A stretch of 33,639 nucleotides of DNA from a virus, in the IMG/VR virus record IMGVR_UViG_3300033153_013534, positions 1 through 33,639 of that record; one strand, 5' to 3'. Shown one piece after another: positions 10,526 to 26,231 of this stretch; the first letter of the stretch is position 1; each line of letters begins with the position of its first letter. A program made the position numbers and the translations under genes. The notes under the pieces were generated by a model, which searched no databases, was not told where the DNA came from, and saw nothing but the letters and a program-made list of their open reading frames with translations.

Positions 10526-10644
10526 TTGGACACGGATTACACGGATAAACGCGGATAAAGAATAAAAGTATGGGCACATTGCAATGTGCCCATACTTTAA
10601 AGTTTTTAATCTGTGTCATCTGTGTAATCCGTGTCCCAAATAAA
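10526..10644. repeat. Long inverted repeat with internal 34-bp palindrome
   Basis: Outer arms: TTGGACACGGATTACACGGAT (left) and ATCTGTGTAATCCGTGTCC (right), imperfectly complementary. Between them lies a perfect palindrome at 10565-10598, half-site AAAGTATGGGCACATTG. The same architecture recurs at 17041-17163 and 21025-21146. It ends two to four bases before the next gene's start. As RNA it folds into a long rod; as DNA it could be a cruciform. Confidence 0.85.
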
Positions 10645-11580: not shown

Positions 11581-11674
11581 TTGGACACGGATTACACGGA
11601 TGACACAGATAAAGAATAAATAAAATAAAATTAAAAGTTTTTAATCTGTGTCATCCGTGTAATCCGTGTCCCAA
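11581..11674. repeat. Long inverted repeat, no internal palindrome
   Basis: TTGGACACGGATTACACGGA at the left pairs with TCCGTGTAATCCGTGTCCCAA at the right, across an A/T-rich centre (AAAGAATAAATAAAATAAAA). Same family as 10526-10644 but without the GGGCACATTG insert. The next gene starts 9 bases on, after AATAAAAAA, with no ribosome site. Confidence 0.85.
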
Positions 11675-12149: not shown

Positions 12150-12293
12150 TGGGACACGGATTACACGGATGAACACAGATAAGGACTAAGCAGAGTAAAA
12201 GAAAAAACACAACCATGCTGCATCTTCCGAAGTCTTTTTGTTTTTAACTTTTAATTTTTTTAATCTGTGTCCATCCGTGTAATCCGTGTCCAA
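12150..12293. repeat. Long inverted repeat with central insert
   Basis: Left arm GGGACACGGATTACACGGAT, right arm ATCCGTGTAATCCGTGTCC. The centre holds GACTAAGCAGAGTAAAAGAA and CTGCATCTTCCGAAGT, also found in altered form at 21314-21462, so these two copies form a subfamily distinct from the palindrome-bearing copies. Confidence 0.85.
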
Positions 12294-17040: not shown

Positions 17041-17163
17041 TTGGACACGGATTACACGGATGACACGGATAAAGAATAAACAAAATAAAAGTAGGGGCAC
17101 ATTACGATGTGCCCCTACTTTGAAGTTTTTAATCTGTGTTCATCCGTGTAATCCGTGTCCCAA
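17041..17163. repeat. Long inverted repeat with internal 34-bp palindrome
   Basis: Outer arms TTGGACACGGATTACACGGA and TCCGTGTAATCCGTGTCCCAA. Internal palindrome 17088-17121, half-site AAAGTAGGGGCACATTA. Compared with 10565-10598 the stem base pair at the fourth GTA-position is changed on both sides (GTATGGG/CCCATAC becomes GTAGGGG/CCCCTAC), so pairing is preserved. The centre has ATTACGAT in place of ATTGCAAT. Confidence 0.85.
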
Positions 17164-19395: not shown

Positions 19396-20703
19396 ATGGG
19401 CAAAGCAACCATCATAAGCGGCGGCACAGAAGGCCAATACCAGGTAAAGCTGGCCCTGGACACTCACCGTGTCAAGGAACGCATCATTTATTTAGATTGT
19501 CTTATAGCCGATCTCGCCGTGCGCATTGCGGCCCTCCCCTCAGGAGCCGAAAAAGACCGGCTTGAATTAGAGCAGCTCTCCCTTGAGAAACAAAAAGATT
19601 ATCTAATTAACAACACGGAGGAAGATCCAACCGTGTCCGCATGGTGCGCCGATTATACTGAAGACCTCTCAGGCCAGGTGGGTACCGTAGAGGTCCCCGG
19701 ACAGAGGGATATTGTGCAGATCAGGCCCGGGTATGATGGAAACGCCGTGTTCAGCGCGGCCAGGGACGGCCAACTGCAACCCTCCATAGCGGGCGTGCCG
19801 TCCACGGTTTTCTGGAACTGGGCCATGATGGCAGGCTGGCAAAAATGGAAACCCACATTCCGGCATGGCCAGATCACATCCATAAACGGGGACACATGCA
19901 ATATAGCACTCGAACCCGCTTTCAGTGACGTCCAGGCCCTTAATATAAACCAGGCCGATAACCTTTCGGACGTGCCCATTGAGTACATGGAATGTAACGG
20001 CGATATATTTGAAGCAGGCGATAATGTCCTGATCGAATTCGAGGGCCAGGATTGGAGTACCCCCAAGGTTATAGGTTTTAAAATAGAACCTCAAAAATGC
20101 TGCCCGCCGGATGTGCCCCTGGCCTTTGATGACGACAACACGCCCGAGCAGATTGCGCCCGGCGGTTTTATCACTGTGTATGTGACTGAAGATACAGGCG
20201 CCGGCCCGTTTAGGTATGAAGTGAGCGGAAAGGGCTACACATGGCATGACAGCGGAACCGGCACGCTTGAGACCGCCGACAGAAACGCCCGTCTGGATTG
20301 TGCGGACGGCACATGAGGACCTGATTTTTTCGCGGTCGCGGAAATCACTATCACGGACGCCTGTGGGGATTTTGTAACCATACAGATACTCAATACGGTC
20401 GGGTCATGGGCAATCGCATGGTTTCATTTCTGGCAGGGGTGCGAGGAAACCGAATGGGTTGAATTGAGTAGATCCGTAAAATGGGGGTCCGAATGTTGTG
20501 ACCCTGATCCCAAGGTGGGTCATTTCGCTTGGGTGGAAGCCGGATGCAGACGGACATATGAGGGTTGGACGGATATTTATAGGCTATATCGTTATGAATT
20601 AGGCTGCCCGGATATTGATGACTGGAGATGGAATGTTAAATTTATGAGTTTCGGATGCCCGGGCGGCTGTGCCGAATGGCACATTGATTGGGAAAATTTA
20701 TAA
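19396..20703 (+). CDS. Tail protein with in-frame TGA, candidate selenoprotein
   Basis: 435 codons in one frame, interrupted only by TGA at 20314-20316 (codon 307), then open for 128 more codons to TAA 20701-20703, which overlaps the next ATG. Residues 1-100 are a helical part with long coiled region; 110-230 an OB-like domain (GQITSINGDTCNIALEPAFS, NVLIEFEGQDWSTPKVIGF); 245-340 an Ig-like domain in which the TGA falls (LDCADGT-stop-GPDFFAVAEITITDACG); then a Cys/Trp-rich tail. The TGA occupies the spot where a Cys is expected. A hairpin with GGTC loop lies 17 bases behind it (see 20327-20344). The alternatives are a nonsense mutation or a sequencing error. Confidence 0.7.
20327..20344 (+). 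promoter_or_regulatory. Possible bacterial SECIS hairpin
   Basis: TTTTCGC (20327-20333), loop GGTC (20334-20337), GCGGAAA (20338-20344): seven pairs including one T-G wobble, 17 bases behind the TGA. As I remember it, the E. coli fdhF element has a three-pair upper stem closing a GGUC loop, a U just 5' of that stem, and 18 bases between UGA and loop. The spacing, loop and the T at 20330 match that plan. It may be coincidence. Confidence 0.45.
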
Positions 20704-21024: not shown

Positions 21025-21146
21025 TAGGACACGGATGACACGGATGACACGGATCGAAGAATAACAAAATAAAAGTAAGGGCACATTGCAATGTGCCCTT
21101 ACTTTAAAGTTTTTAATCTGTGTTCATCCGTGTAATCCGTGTCCAA
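21025..21146. repeat. Long inverted repeat with internal 34-bp palindrome
   Basis: Left arm TAGGACACGGATGACACGGA, right arm TCCGTGTAATCCGTGTCC. Internal palindrome 21072-21105, half-site AAAGTAAGGGCACATTG: again the variable base pair is changed on both sides (GTAAGGG/CCCTTAC). Third member of the palindrome subfamily. Confidence 0.85.
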
Positions 21147-21167: not shown

Positions 21168-21311
21168 ATGCCGAAATTCGACACCGACAACTACGAAGCC
21201 GTAACCAGCGTAAACGATACCGACCTGTTCCTGATCGTACAGGACGGCGAAACAAAAAAAATAACATCCGAGCAGCTCCAGGATGCCCTTATGCACCCTG
21301 ATGATTTGTAA
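21168..21311 (+). CDS. Short paralogue of the DGR target N-terminus
   Basis: 47 residues. MPKFDTDNYEAVTSVNDTDLFLIVQDGETKKITSEQL parallels residues 1-38 of the DGR target protein next door (MPKFDKYAAVITPAGTDLFLVKQGDSTKILTLSQIEEF). Both have strong ribosome sites (AAAGGAGG). It is either a stand-alone copy of the module that anchors the target to the tail, or the leftover of a duplicated target gene that lost its lectin part. The stop is genuine (TAA 21309-21311), and the dispersed repeat follows. Confidence 0.7.
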   Translation: MPKFDTDNYEAVTSVNDTDLFLIVQDGETKKITSEQLQDALMHPDDL

Positions 21312-21313
21312 AC

Positions 21314-21462
21314 ATAGGACACGGATCAAGACGGATGACACGGATAAAGACTAAGCAAAGTAAAAGAAAAAGAAAAAATAAAACCAGGCTGTATCTTGCG
21401 AAGTTTTTTGTTTTTAATTTTAAAAGTTTGATCTGTGTCATCCGTGTAAATCCGTGTCCCAA
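21314..21462. repeat. Long inverted repeat with central insert
   Basis: ATAGGACACGGATCAAGACGG left, CATCCGTGTAAATCCGTGTCC right, centre with GACTAAGCAAAGTAAAAGAA and GGCTGTATCTTGCGAAGT. Pairs with 12150-12293 as a subfamily. Confidence 0.8.
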
Positions 21463-21477: not shown

Positions 21478-22383
21478 ATGCCGAAATTCGACAAATACGC
21501 CGCCGTTATCACCCCAGCCGGAACGGACCTGTTCCTGGTTAAGCAGGGAGATTCAACGAAGATTCTGACCCTCAGCCAGATTGAGGAATTCTACCCCCGT
21601 TGTCTCCCCCTCAAAACCGGGCAGGAAACAAGCTACCATGCCGACGATGACGGGGATTTGGAAAAAGGAGTAGCCCGATCCTATACGGTGCTCACGACCG
21701 GGGACCAGTCCGGGACTACAAATATCACAATCAACGGCAAAACCGGGGCAGTTAGCAATAATGTCGTCAAGGACAACAGGACCGCCCTGGATTGGCAGCG
21801 ATTTGTCGCGCAATCGGACATCGGTCCCGGTGCCGACGGAAAACTATTCTGGGATCAATGGACGTTAGAGAATAAAACGGACATCTCGTTTATAAATGCA
21901 ACCGGTAAAATACACAGTGTAGCCGGTGAATTTAGCGCGGATGCATTATGTGTGGGCCGTAAATTTACAGTGACCGGTAGCGGATCGAACGACGGCACAT
22001 ATACAGTGAGTGCCATTGATGCCAACGACATTACTACGGTCGAGGGCGTAGCCGACGAAGCGGCGGGTGATACGGTTACAATCGCCACGGTCGATGATCT
22101 AATTTGGGATTTTTTGGCACAGGCGAACGCAAATAGCTTAGGTGGATACGCTGATTGGCAAATCCCGAACAAGAATCAATTGAACAGCCTCGTCGATATC
22201 GTCAGATACAACCCCTGCATTAACACGACGGCCTTTCCGTCGACACCGTCAACCTATTTCTGGACATCATCTACGAGGCCGGGCTACACGTCCAGCGCGT
22301 TCCTCGTGGTCTTCACCAGCGGTCACGTGTACGACGGCAATAAGGCGCGGTATAGGTGGTGTGTCCGCCTGGTCCGAGGATAA
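21478..22383 (+). CDS. DGR target protein, DUF1566/C-type lectin
   Basis: 301 residues, displayed receptor-binding protein whose last 39 codons are diversified by the retroelement. Residues 1-40: short anchoring module shared with the upstream mini-gene. From about 44: DUF1566 start (LPLKTGQETSYHADDDGDLEKGVARSYTV). Residues about 137-205: an inserted small beta domain (ATGKIHSVAGEFSADALCVG ... DGTYTVSAIDANDITTVEG). Then the lectin-fold C-terminus: YADWQIPNKNQLNSLVD, YFWTSST, and the variable repeat ending VRLVRG-stop. The final VRLVRG is the fixed C-terminal strand of the fold. The ribosome site is AAAGGAGGCCTGAC. Confidence 0.93.
   Translation: MPKFDKYAAVITPAGTDLFLVKQGDSTKILTLSQIEEFYPRCLPLKTGQETSYHADDDGDLEKGVARSYTVLTTGDQSGTTNITINGKTGAVSNNVVKDNRTALDWQRFVAQSDIGPGADGKLFWDQWTLENKTDISFINATGKIHSVAGEFSADALCVGRKFTVTGSGSNDGTYTVSAIDANDITTVEGVADEAAGDTVTIATVDDLIWDFLAQANANSLGGYADWQIPNKNQLNSLVDIVRYNPCINTTAFPSTPSTYFWTSSTRPGYTSSAFLVVFTSGHVYDGNKARYRWCVRLVRG
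22266..22382 (+). repeat. Variable repeat (VR) of the DGR
   Basis: 117 bp, collinear with the template repeat at 22918-23034 without gaps. It differs at 17 positions; 16 are adenine in the template (9 to G, 4 to T, 3 to C) and one is T to G at 22359. The last 21 bases are identical to the template and GC-rich at GTCCGCCTGGTCCGAGGA, the place of the homing-initiation element. Identity stops within the TAA stop codon: template TAC, VR TAA. Confidence 0.96.
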
Positions 22384-22432
22384 GTTATTTTATTATTTAA
22401 TTCTTTTTTTATCATTTTGGTTGTGGAGGACA

Positions 22433-22777
22433 ATGGCACATTATGAGCATTTACCGATTTATAAGGCTGCTATGGATTTATGTGTTTATTTTGAGAAAAT
22501 AGTACGGAATTTTGACAGGCACCATAAATATATCCTTGGCAGCGATTTGCGGAAACGTGCCATTAGAGCCGCGACCTTAGTAATCAAGGCCAACGATGCA
22601 AAAAACAAGTTGCCTTTGCTCCTGAAATTAAAGGATACATTAGACGAAATGAAAATATTAATCAGGATAGCAAAAGAGGTGAAGGCATTCCACAGCTTTA
22701 AGAGCTTTACGGTTTCGGTAAGATTGTTAGATAGCATTACAAGACAATGTATGGGTTGGATAAAATCGCAAAAGTGA
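22433..22777 (+). CDS. avd: Accessory variability protein Avd
   Basis: 114 residues, basic, all-helical (HLPIYKAAMDLCVYFEKIVR, GSDLRKRAIRAATLVIKAND, LKDTLDEMKILIRIAKEVKA, VRLLDSITRQCMGWIKSQK). It has the four-helix-bundle pattern of Avd and of the S23/intervening-sequence proteins. Avd forms a pentamer that binds the RT and template RNA and is needed for mutagenic homing. ATG 22433 follows TGTGGAGGAC; an earlier in-frame start at 22361 lies in the VR and is rejected. It lies between VR and TR, as in Bordetella phage BPP-1. Confidence 0.9.
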   Translation: MAHYEHLPIYKAAMDLCVYFEKIVRNFDRHHKYILGSDLRKRAIRAATLVIKANDAKNKLPLLLKLKDTLDEMKILIRIAKEVKAFHSFKSFTVSVRLLDSITRQCMGWIKSQK

Positions 22778-22792
22778 TCATCTTAGCCGGAA

Positions 22793-22816
22793 TCAATATC
22801 CGCGGATGGATATTGA
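22793..22816 (+). ncRNA. Stem-loop in template RNA leader
   Basis: TCAATATCC (22793-22801), loop GCGGAT, GGATATTGA (22808-22816): perfect 9-bp stem in the avd-TR spacer (22778-22917), which has no gene. In the best-studied DGR the RNA that flanks TR contributes to priming and RT binding, so this may be part of the functional template RNA. The RNA's real ends cannot be read from the sequence. Confidence 0.5.
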
Positions 22817-22917
22817 GAGTGCCATGATTATCCTGCGCTTGCTTCGCCATGTTGGCATAGAATTATTCCGGGTTCGTACTCTATGAGATCGGGACCGGAA
22901 TTTAAAGAGAGCAAGTT

Positions 22918-23034
22918 ATCATCTACGAGGCCGGACAACACGTCCAACGCGTTCAACGTGAACTTCAACAACGGTAACGTGAACAACAACAATAAGGCGC
23001 GGTATAGGTATTATGTCCGCCTGGTCCGAGGATA
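22918..23034 (+). repeat. Template repeat (TR) of the DGR
   Basis: 117 bp holding 37 adenines. Read in the target's frame it is a string of AAC codons (P-D-N-T-S-N-A-F-N-V-N-F-N-N-G-N-V-N-N-N-N-K), the usual design that lets A-mutagenesis reach up to 15 amino acids per codon without making a stop. Sixteen of the adenines (43%) are replaced in the current VR. It lies directly upstream of, and in frame with, the RT gene. Confidence 0.96.
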
Positions 23035-23041
23035 CCCAAAG

Positions 23042-24103
23042 ATGATCACTTTTCGACAAATTTTTGACAGTTATACGATGTGCCGCAAGAATAAGAGAAA
23101 CACGATTAATCAGTTACGATTTGAAGTCAATGCGGAACAGAATCTATTGGCATTACAGTCCGAACTCAACGACAGAACATATCGGCCTCGCAGGTCCATA
23201 TGCTTTGTCGTGAATAAACCAAAGCTGAGAGAAATATTTGCAGCGGATTTCAGAGACAGGATAGTGCATCACTTGCTGGTATCGCATTTAGAATTAATGG
23301 CAGAGCCGATATTTATCCATGATAGTTACGCATGCCGCAAAGGAAAAGGTACACACGCGGCGGTAAAGAGGTTGCAATCATTTATGCGAAGTATCACTGA
23401 AAATAATTCAAAAATGGCATATTGCCTGCAATTGGATGTCAGGGCTTTTTTCTTTTCAATAAACAAAGGTATCCTTTTTAAAATTGTCGAGAAATATATA
23501 CGTAATGCAGACATGATGTGGATTGCCAGGGCCGTCATTTTTAATGATTGCACCAGAAACGCAATAATAAAAAAGGGTAGAAGTTTGCTGAAATATATCC
23601 CAAGTCATAAGACTTTGTTTGGTCAGGCAAGCAATAAAGGTTTGCCCATTGGGAATCTTACCAGTCAGTTTTTCGCAAATCTTTATCTGAATCAACTTGA
23701 TCAGTTTATAAAGCACACTTTGAAATGTAGATATTATCTTAGATATATGGATGATCTCTTGATCCTTCATCGTGACAAAAGGATGCTGGAAAATTGGACT
23801 GAAGATATCTCGGACTTTTTAAGAGACAAGCTTGACCTGTTCCTCAATGAAAGTAAAACAATCATGAGGCCGGTTTCAGACGGGGTTGATTATTTAGGGT
23901 ATATAGTCAGGCCCTTCTATATTTTGGTGAGACGGCGCGTTGTGAGCAATATCAAATCAAGACTTTATTCCGGGACGTTGGATAAAAAAGCGTATGCCTC
24001 ATACATGGGGCACTTCAAGCACGCAAATACATATAATTTACGACAACACATTAACCAGTCGATTATGGATCGATATCGAGCTAAAGGAGCATGCAATGGA
24101 TGA
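23042..24103 (+). CDS. DGR reverse transcriptase
   Basis: 353 residues. Copies the TR RNA into adenine-mutagenised cDNA. Motifs: RPRRSICFVVNKPKLREIFA and DFRDRIVHHLL (fingers), YCLQLDVRAFFFSI (first catalytic Asp), LPIGNLTSQFFANLYL with the DGR signature IGNLTSQ at about 203-209, YMDD at 235-238, and DYLGYIVRP from 283. No protease, RNase H or maturase domain. I place the start at ATG 23042 with GAGGA nine bases upstream; that ribosome site lies in the conserved tail of TR. A start at 22883 would translate TR into a 53-residue N-terminal extension. AT content is higher than in the tail genes. Confidence 0.95.
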   Translation: MITFRQIFDSYTMCRKNKRNTINQLRFEVNAEQNLLALQSELNDRTYRPRRSICFVVNKPKLREIFAADFRDRIVHHLLVSHLELMAEPIFIHDSYACRKGKGTHAAVKRLQSFMRSITENNSKMAYCLQLDVRAFFFSINKGILFKIVEKYIRNADMMWIARAVIFNDCTRNAIIKKGRSLLKYIPSHKTLFGQASNKGLPIGNLTSQFFANLYLNQLDQFIKHTLKCRYYLRYMDDLLILHRDKRMLENWTEDISDFLRDKLDLFLNESKTIMRPVSDGVDYLGYIVRPFYILVRRRVVSNIKSRLYSGTLDKKAYASYMGHFKHANTYNLRQHINQSIMDRYRAKGACNG

Positions 24104-25270: not shown

Positions 25271-25306
25271 AGTTTGATCCGTGTCATCTGTGTAATCTGT
25301 GTCCCA
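25271..25306 (+). repeat. Right-hand arm of the dispersed repeat
   Basis: AGTTTGATCCGTGTCATCTG followed by TGTAATCTGTGTCCC. Only the right-hand arm is present, as at 13484-13504. It fills the gap between the endolysin and the lipase genes. Confidence 0.7.
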
Positions 25307-25316
25307 TGGCTTCTTT

Positions 25317-26231
25317 ATGAAAAAAGCACTCTCCATAAAAGGCGGCGGTATCCGGGGCGTGATCCCCGGTCTTGTTCTCGGTTACATCGAGAGCATAACC
25401 GGAAGACCCATCTCCGCCCTTTTCGACCTTATCGCCGGCACATCCACGGGCGGCATCTTAGCCCTGGGCCTTACCATACCGGATTTATCTTCCCCCTCCC
25501 CCAAATACACCGCCGAACAAATGACCGACCTCTATGCGGAGCGAGGCCATGAGATATTCACCCGCCCCTGGCTCAAGGGCCTGTGCGGTCTCACTGATGA
25601 ACGCTACCCCCATGAACCCTTAGAGCGGATACTGAACGAGTATTTCGGAGACACATTTCTGCAAGACGCCCTGACAAACATAATGATCACGAGCTATGAA
25701 TTCATAACCAGGCGTCCCGTAATATTCAAATCCTGGCACCCGGACACCGGAATCATAAAAATGACCTCGGCGGCCCGGGCCACCTCCGCGGCCCCCACAT
25801 ACTTTGAGCCCTGCCAGGTAATCTTAAACGGAACCCTTTTATCCCTCATAGACGGCGGCCTCAAATTCAACCACCCGGCCATGTGCGCCTATGCGGAGAT
25901 GCGCCGGCTCTGGCCGGATGAAACAGAATTCATGATTGTGTCAATAGGCACGGGCAGGCCCACCCGCGAGATAAGCTTTGCAGACGCAAAGGACTGGGGC
26001 ATAGGCTGGCTGCCCCATATAATAGAGATCACCATGGACGGCACGGAAGTGGATTATCAATTGAAATGGATACTCGGAGAGAACTATCACGCCCTTGACA
26101 CAAACCTTGAAATCGCAAGTGATGACATGGACGATGCCACCCCGGAAAACATCAAAAACCTCAAAAGAGAGTCCGCCAAACTAATCATGGAAAATGTGGA
26201 AGAGATTGACGGGATATGTGAAAGCCTTTAG
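25317..26231 (+). CDS. Patatin-like phospholipase
   Basis: 304 residues. Has the full catalytic set: oxyanion loop KGGGIRGVIPG near residue 8, nucleophile Ser43 in GTSTG, and Asp179 in LIDGGLKFNHP. Such enzymes hydrolyse acyl chains of membrane lipids. No signal peptide. I chose ATG 25317 (MKKALSIKGGG); a GTG at 25299 and an out-of-frame ATG at 25305 lie in the repeat arm. No Shine-Dalgarno sequence. It sits next to the endolysin, so it may help membrane lysis. It could also be a defence effector, as CapV-type patatins are, but no nucleotide cyclase is nearby. Confidence 0.88.
   Translation: MKKALSIKGGGIRGVIPGLVLGYIESITGRPISALFDLIAGTSTGGILALGLTIPDLSSPSPKYTAEQMTDLYAERGHEIFTRPWLKGLCGLTDERYPHEPLERILNEYFGDTFLQDALTNIMITSYEFITRRPVIFKSWHPDTGIIKMTSAARATSAAPTYFEPCQVILNGTLLSLIDGGLKFNHPAMCAYAEMRRLWPDETEFMIVSIGTGRPTREISFADAKDWGIGWLPHIIEITMDGTEVDYQLKWILGENYHALDTNLEIASDDMDDATPENIKNLKRESAKLIMENVEEIDGICESL

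Follow-up and report, generated by a model that had tools for sequence, protein, structure and literature searches.

A complete diversity-generating retroelement with a covarying structured RNA 5' of its template repeat in a probable temperate siphophage

A covarying structured RNA lies between the avd gene and the template repeat (TR) of a complete diversity-generating retroelement (DGR) in a phage genome, and its subtype is absent from Rfam. The genome, hereafter the window, is 33,639 nt long and makes up an entire IMG/VR record. The DGR itself is another member of a known family, and candidate newness sits, provisionally, in the RNA subtype and in a proposed clamp between the flank of this RNA and the TR 3' end. 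We consider it probable that the reverse transcriptase (RT) and Avd are recruited by the 5' RNA, and that the TR is looped by the clamp so that its 3' boundary is offered for priming. As far as we are aware, only for Bordetella phage BPP-1 has the initiation of cDNA synthesis by a DGR been worked out in detail, and there the priming spacer lies 3' of the template.

The window is the genome of a probable temperate siphophage, because it contains terminase, portal, head protease, major head protein and tape-measure genes together with a CII-like regulator. An earlier note on this DNA had listed all DGR parts in order, and the same arrangement was confirmed here: target with its variable repeat (VR), avd, TR and RT, all on the + strand (21478-24103; Table 1). 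The structured RNA 5' of the TR was absent from that note.

Table 1. Features of the DGR cassette in the window
Feature	Position	Strand	Description
Target gene	21478..22383	+	301 aa; Lcl_C (C-type-lectin-like), PF07603, E = 2.4e-22; VR at 3' end
VR	22266..22382	+	117-nt ungapped repeat of TR; final two bases inside stop codon
avd (accessory variability determinant)	22433..22777	+	114 aa; ATG at 22433; PF22296 (bAvd), E = 8.8e-13, above curated cut-off
Structured avd-TR RNA (putative 5' scaffold of RT-Avd)	22786..22917	+	model match 22788-22921
Hairpin 1 of RNA	22793..22816	+	22793-22801 pairs with 22808-22816; from folding; helix 1 covaries
Proposed clamp, 5' strand	22829..22834	+	TATCCT, just before P2; complementary to TR 3' end
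Outer helix P2 of RNA	22837..22916	+	22837-22844 with 22909-22916; encloses two hairpins; ends directly before TR
TR	22918..23034	+	117 nt; 37 adenines; 11 AAY codons in VR frame
Proposed clamp, 3' strand	23029..23034	+	AGGATA, final six TR bases; would pair with TATCCT
DGR RT	23042..24103	+	353 aa; LPIGNLTSQ and RYMDD; RVT_1, 1.2e-23

The stretch between avd and TR is conserved in the closest relative, L003 (IMGVR_UViG_3300033148_006939), and in L100-L103, with compensatory changes in the outer helix and the hairpins. In an alignment of 12 loci from a sister subgroup, 23 of 30 pairs had both partners substituted, and pairing was formed in 96.4% of cells. Slid versions of this alignment reached at most 51% pairing, and none of 500 shuffles was as good. 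A model named R2, built from these 12 loci alone and without the window's group, found the window RNA at the 5' border of the TR (E = 7e-8, 628 kb searched; 6.7e-10 in a local unfiltered search). R2 also matched L073, L050, L071, L025 and L009, each immediately 5' of TR or RT. Across all 23 R2-matched loci, 26/30 pairs covary, and 8/9 pairs of P2 changed on both sides; this alignment was fitted to R2, and the independent covariation count is the 23/30 of the 12 loci. Folding of the window RNA as a single sequence was mildly better than that of shuffles (z = -1.5).

Rfam gave no credible match to the window. RT-15 (RF03018) showed no match to it at E up to 10, and its gathering score was not reached. 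Conversely, R2 matched neither the RT-15 loci nor BPP-1, and none of the loci run against both R2 and RT-15 was matched by both.

The complementarity that we propose as a clamp is present in the window, L003, L100, L101 and L103. It is almost invariant in the window's own subgroup, and covariation was seen in other subtypes only; the clamp of the window rests largely on analogy. For its TCC, an invariant GGA located 40 nt upstream is an alternative pairing partner. Among the RT-15 types, several of which have the clamp TTGAATCTG/CAGATTCAA, pair 7 was formed in 62 of 65 loci with six pair types (expected 29.9; reached by none of 5,000 permutations). In a sliding control, the five variable positions were 77.7% paired, compared with at most 49.2% when the partner was slid. 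The third subtype has clamps GACACT/AGTGTC, GATACT/AGTATC and GAAACT/AGTTTC, in which one position is C-G, T-A or A-T and is paired in 13/13 loci. Clamp covariation is strong in two subtypes. In subtype C2 the clamp has only 4-5 bp, and permutation gave it no support.

Such permutation tests can be inflated by shared descent, although descent does not readily account for the number of pair types seen. The clamp stretch was picked by eye before testing, and a blind scan of 105 loci was used as a guard against that choice. Complementary runs of at least 7 were found in 30% of loci versus 13-14% in controls, most of them at the clamp site. Furthermore, loci outside the preset classes yielded more compensated clamps (L055, CAACCTG/CAGGTTG; L074).

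The TR and VR are the only two repeat copies in the window. They differ at 17 of 117 positions (9 A>G, 4 A>T, 3 A>C and 1 T>G), which reproduces the earlier count of 16 changes at TR adenines. Given 37 A among 117 TR positions, this concentration has a hypergeometric p of 9e-9. The sole non-adenine difference, T>G at the 94th TR base, adjoins a mutated A. A recount of the altered codons also gave 13, as claimed before: D>G, N>Y, N>S, N>L, N>V, N>T, N>S, N>H, N>Y, N>D, N>G, Y>W and Y>C. The earlier note had proposed that its reading would fail if differences in relatives were not confined to TR adenines. In 212 TR-VR pairs from 122 relatives, found by ungapped repeat search, 2,813 of 2,986 differences (94%) were at TR adenines, and the reading held.

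The TRs of the window and L003 differ at 24 sites, 14 of which are framework sites. At all 14, the VR of each phage has the base of its own TR. Such concerted sites are what repeated copying between TR and VR predicts, and the direction of copying is not given by them. The claim that the system has worked in the past is borne out by these concerted changes and by the adenine bias of 16/17. In a DNA search of a phage collection, the sole match was a 65-nt TR-like segment in Bacteroides phages, which we set aside as probably reflecting the common AAC-rich make-up of TRs.

The DGR RT has the motifs noted earlier (IGNLTSQ and YMDD) within LPIGNLTSQ and RYMDD, which fit the DGR-type patterns [I/L/V]GxxxSQ and xxDD; it is intact, and its profile matched PDB chain 8ub7_A (3.9e-55), which we take to be the BPP-1 RT. 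Its identity to homologues is 97% in L003, 65-66% in L100-L103 and 51-57% in a further subgroup. Although the open reading frame extends upstream across the TR to 22883, the start was placed at the ATG at 23042, 7 nt 3' of the TR, which the relatives share. The first ~95 nt of the gene are nearly identical between the window and L003. This 5' end was considered as an RNA element and discarded, because nucleotide conservation is absent in L100-L103. A tblastn search of phages with the window Avd gave no match.

By its sequence match, the target appears to be a lectin-fold protein, encoded beside tail genes and diversified by this DGR. Its orthologue in L003 is 74% identical. The Lcl_C match (21607-22119) covers 205 residues of the target on a 117-position profile, which suggests that some 80 residues are inserted in the lectin domain. 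An AlphaFold model was unusable (mean pLDDT 41), and the fold assignment rests on the sequence match. In the 68 nt scanned 3' of the VR, no inverted repeat of at least 5 bp with a 3-10 nt loop was found; the same scan recovered the post-VR hairpin of BPP-1. The segment directly 3' of the VR (22383-22430) is AT-rich, with ATTATTT common to L003, L100, L101 and L103, and could be an alternative target mark at the place of the BPP-1 DNA hairpin.

Several other observations concern the surroundings of the cassette. A short ORF at 21169-21312 (47 aa) has similarity to just the N-terminal part of the target (MPKFD...DLFLI) and is possibly a remnant of, or an attachment module for, a second target; two VR-bearing targets are present in many relatives. 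In the structural gene at 19396-20316 the stop is an in-frame TGA, beyond which the frame stays open and protein-like to 20703. The L003 homologue has no stop there, but its C-terminal part is unrelated, and the TGA may be a nonsense mutation, a readthrough site or a sequencing error. Dispersed intergenic repeats based on GACACGGATKACACGGAT occur at 10529-10618, 11584-11653, 12153-12273, 17044-17142, 21028-21126, 21328-21431, 25277-25286 and 33004, and they often form inverted pairs that face each other across a short spacer. They are also found between the target and its upstream neighbour, and in L003. Just 3' of the DGR, a patatin-like phospholipase gene (25299-26231; PF01734, 8.6e-20) lies near an NlpC/P60 gene (24829-25263).

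In the mechanism that we favour, RT-Avd would be recruited by the RNA 5' of the template rather than by a 3' spacer as in BPP-1. Pairing of TATCCT with AGGATA would loop the template and offer its 3' boundary for priming, which may start from RNA residues immediately 3' of the 5' clamp strand. If the strand geometry matches that of BPP-1, the primer would lie between the clamp and the outer helix. The error-prone cDNA would then substitute for the VR. The distance from the TR end to RT homology is 58 nt or less in all 122 loci, in a search that permitted up to 400 nt.

The 5' RNA could instead belong to an ordinary DGR as a leader for translation or stability of the RT message, outside the template RNP, with priming from the RT 5' coding region. 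The position of the RNA upstream of the RT gene and the almost unchanged start of that gene between the window and L003 agree with a leader. However, the RNA ends at the TR rather than at the RT start, the strand flanking it shows covariation with the 3' boundary of the TR, which a leader does not need, and the RT 5' coding nucleotides diverge in L100-L103; we regard this explanation as unlikely. Similarly improbable is that the complementarity between the pre-P2 strand and the TR end serves some role other than a priming clamp, for instance as a DNA- or cDNA-level signal, for termination of cDNA synthesis or target choice, or as a transcription attenuator. Covariation indicates that the pairing matters, but neither in which molecule nor when, and the paired TR end occurs in the VR as well. 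Nevertheless, the clamp strand has a fixed place beside P2 in three clear subtypes, as expected of an RNA architecture. The whole cassette may also be a relic, intact through recent descent yet inactive now, as the window record is a single consensus sequence. This we consider very unlikely, given the intact RT, Avd, RNA and A-rich TR, and the TR/VR framework that has stayed concerted since the split from L003.

L003 shares the cassette, the RNA and the clamp of the window, but its TR (L003 4877-4993) has 28 adenines compared with 37. Its TR and VR differ at 15 sites, 9 with A in the TR and 6 with A in the VR only. At all 15 the window TR has adenine (p = 3e-9). VR-only A was found at no more than 3 sites in every other one of the 212 pairs, and 6 of 15 at the background rate has p = 2.7e-8. 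The L003 TR looks adenine-mutagenised, and both repeats look like products of an A-rich template resembling the window's, because of the 15 window-TR adenines and the six VR-only A. Non-A substitutions have been reported in 46% of TR-VR pairs (PMC6642488); the L003 pattern is uncommon, though it need not be without precedent. Among other candidates, L089 was rejected as a second self-mutated TR, since it differs from L090 chiefly in framework and its adenines are kept. L046, L005 and L086 have several VR-only A, fewer than L003, and those of L046 and L005 are at the alignment end.

The L003 TR may have been overwritten by a mutagenic cDNA or through recombination with a VR, two routes that are alike in these data. 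Mutagenic self-homing, in which adenine-mutated cDNA is written into the TR, has in our judgement slightly less than an even chance. The adenine pattern just described fits it. Furthermore, discrimination between TR and VR may be weak, because the two repeats share the same 3' end and the VR is not followed by a long hairpin that could mark the right target. On the other hand, plain VR-to-TR recombination would give the same pattern, the repeats being 655 nt apart in direct orientation, and the case is a single locus.

A wider reading is that a large group of phage DGRs has a mirror topology, with a 5' recruiting and priming RNA, a long-range clamp and a closed template loop, represented in the window by a non-Rfam subtype, and with a template that can be overwritten as in L003. 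We judge the chances of this full reading to be evenly balanced. None of the 122 relatives examined has room for a BPP-1-like 3' spacer. The covarying 5' scaffold and the TR-end clamp offer a concrete priming model for this large and little-studied group. The model would also indicate which sequence must accompany the template if such cassettes serve directed protein evolution. The state of the L003 template suggests that natural DGRs can fail to keep template and target apart. The literature searched, from which the likeliest sources were missing, gave no description of a 5' scaffold or a TR-end clamp in DGRs, and their newness is provisional.

The window and BPP-1 (NC_005357) share the order of target with 3' VR, avd, TR and RT, as well as adenine-specific change. 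They differ in spacing: avd-TR and TR-RT distances are 0 and 144 nt in BPP-1 and 140 and 7 nt in the window. The window thus lacks a structured TR-RT spacer of ~140 nt as in BPP-1, and its own structured segment of 140 nt is 5' of the TR. It is also without the DNA hairpin that follows the VR of BPP-1. The TR end and spacer of BPP-1 have a short complement, CACCT/AGGTG, which we take to lie a few bases before the adenine that serves as primer. RT-Avd recruitment and cDNA priming in BPP-1 are both functions of the 3' spacer (PMC12875486).

The RT-15 RNA is closer in layout. In related DGRs it lies between avd and TR, its outer helix adjoins the TR and the stretch before the helix pairs with the TR 3' end, as proposed for the window. 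It occupies this place in more distant relatives of the window; its internal hairpins and sequence are different, and the window RNA, in the same position, is not classed as a member. Pseudomonas phages Haboob, VB_PaD_phPA-G, LPPA56 and Cruim01 have RTs that are 38-43% identical to that of the window and the TR directly before the RT. These four phages also carry a structured RNA between avd and TR, but of the RT-15 type, and each has two VRs compared with one in the window.
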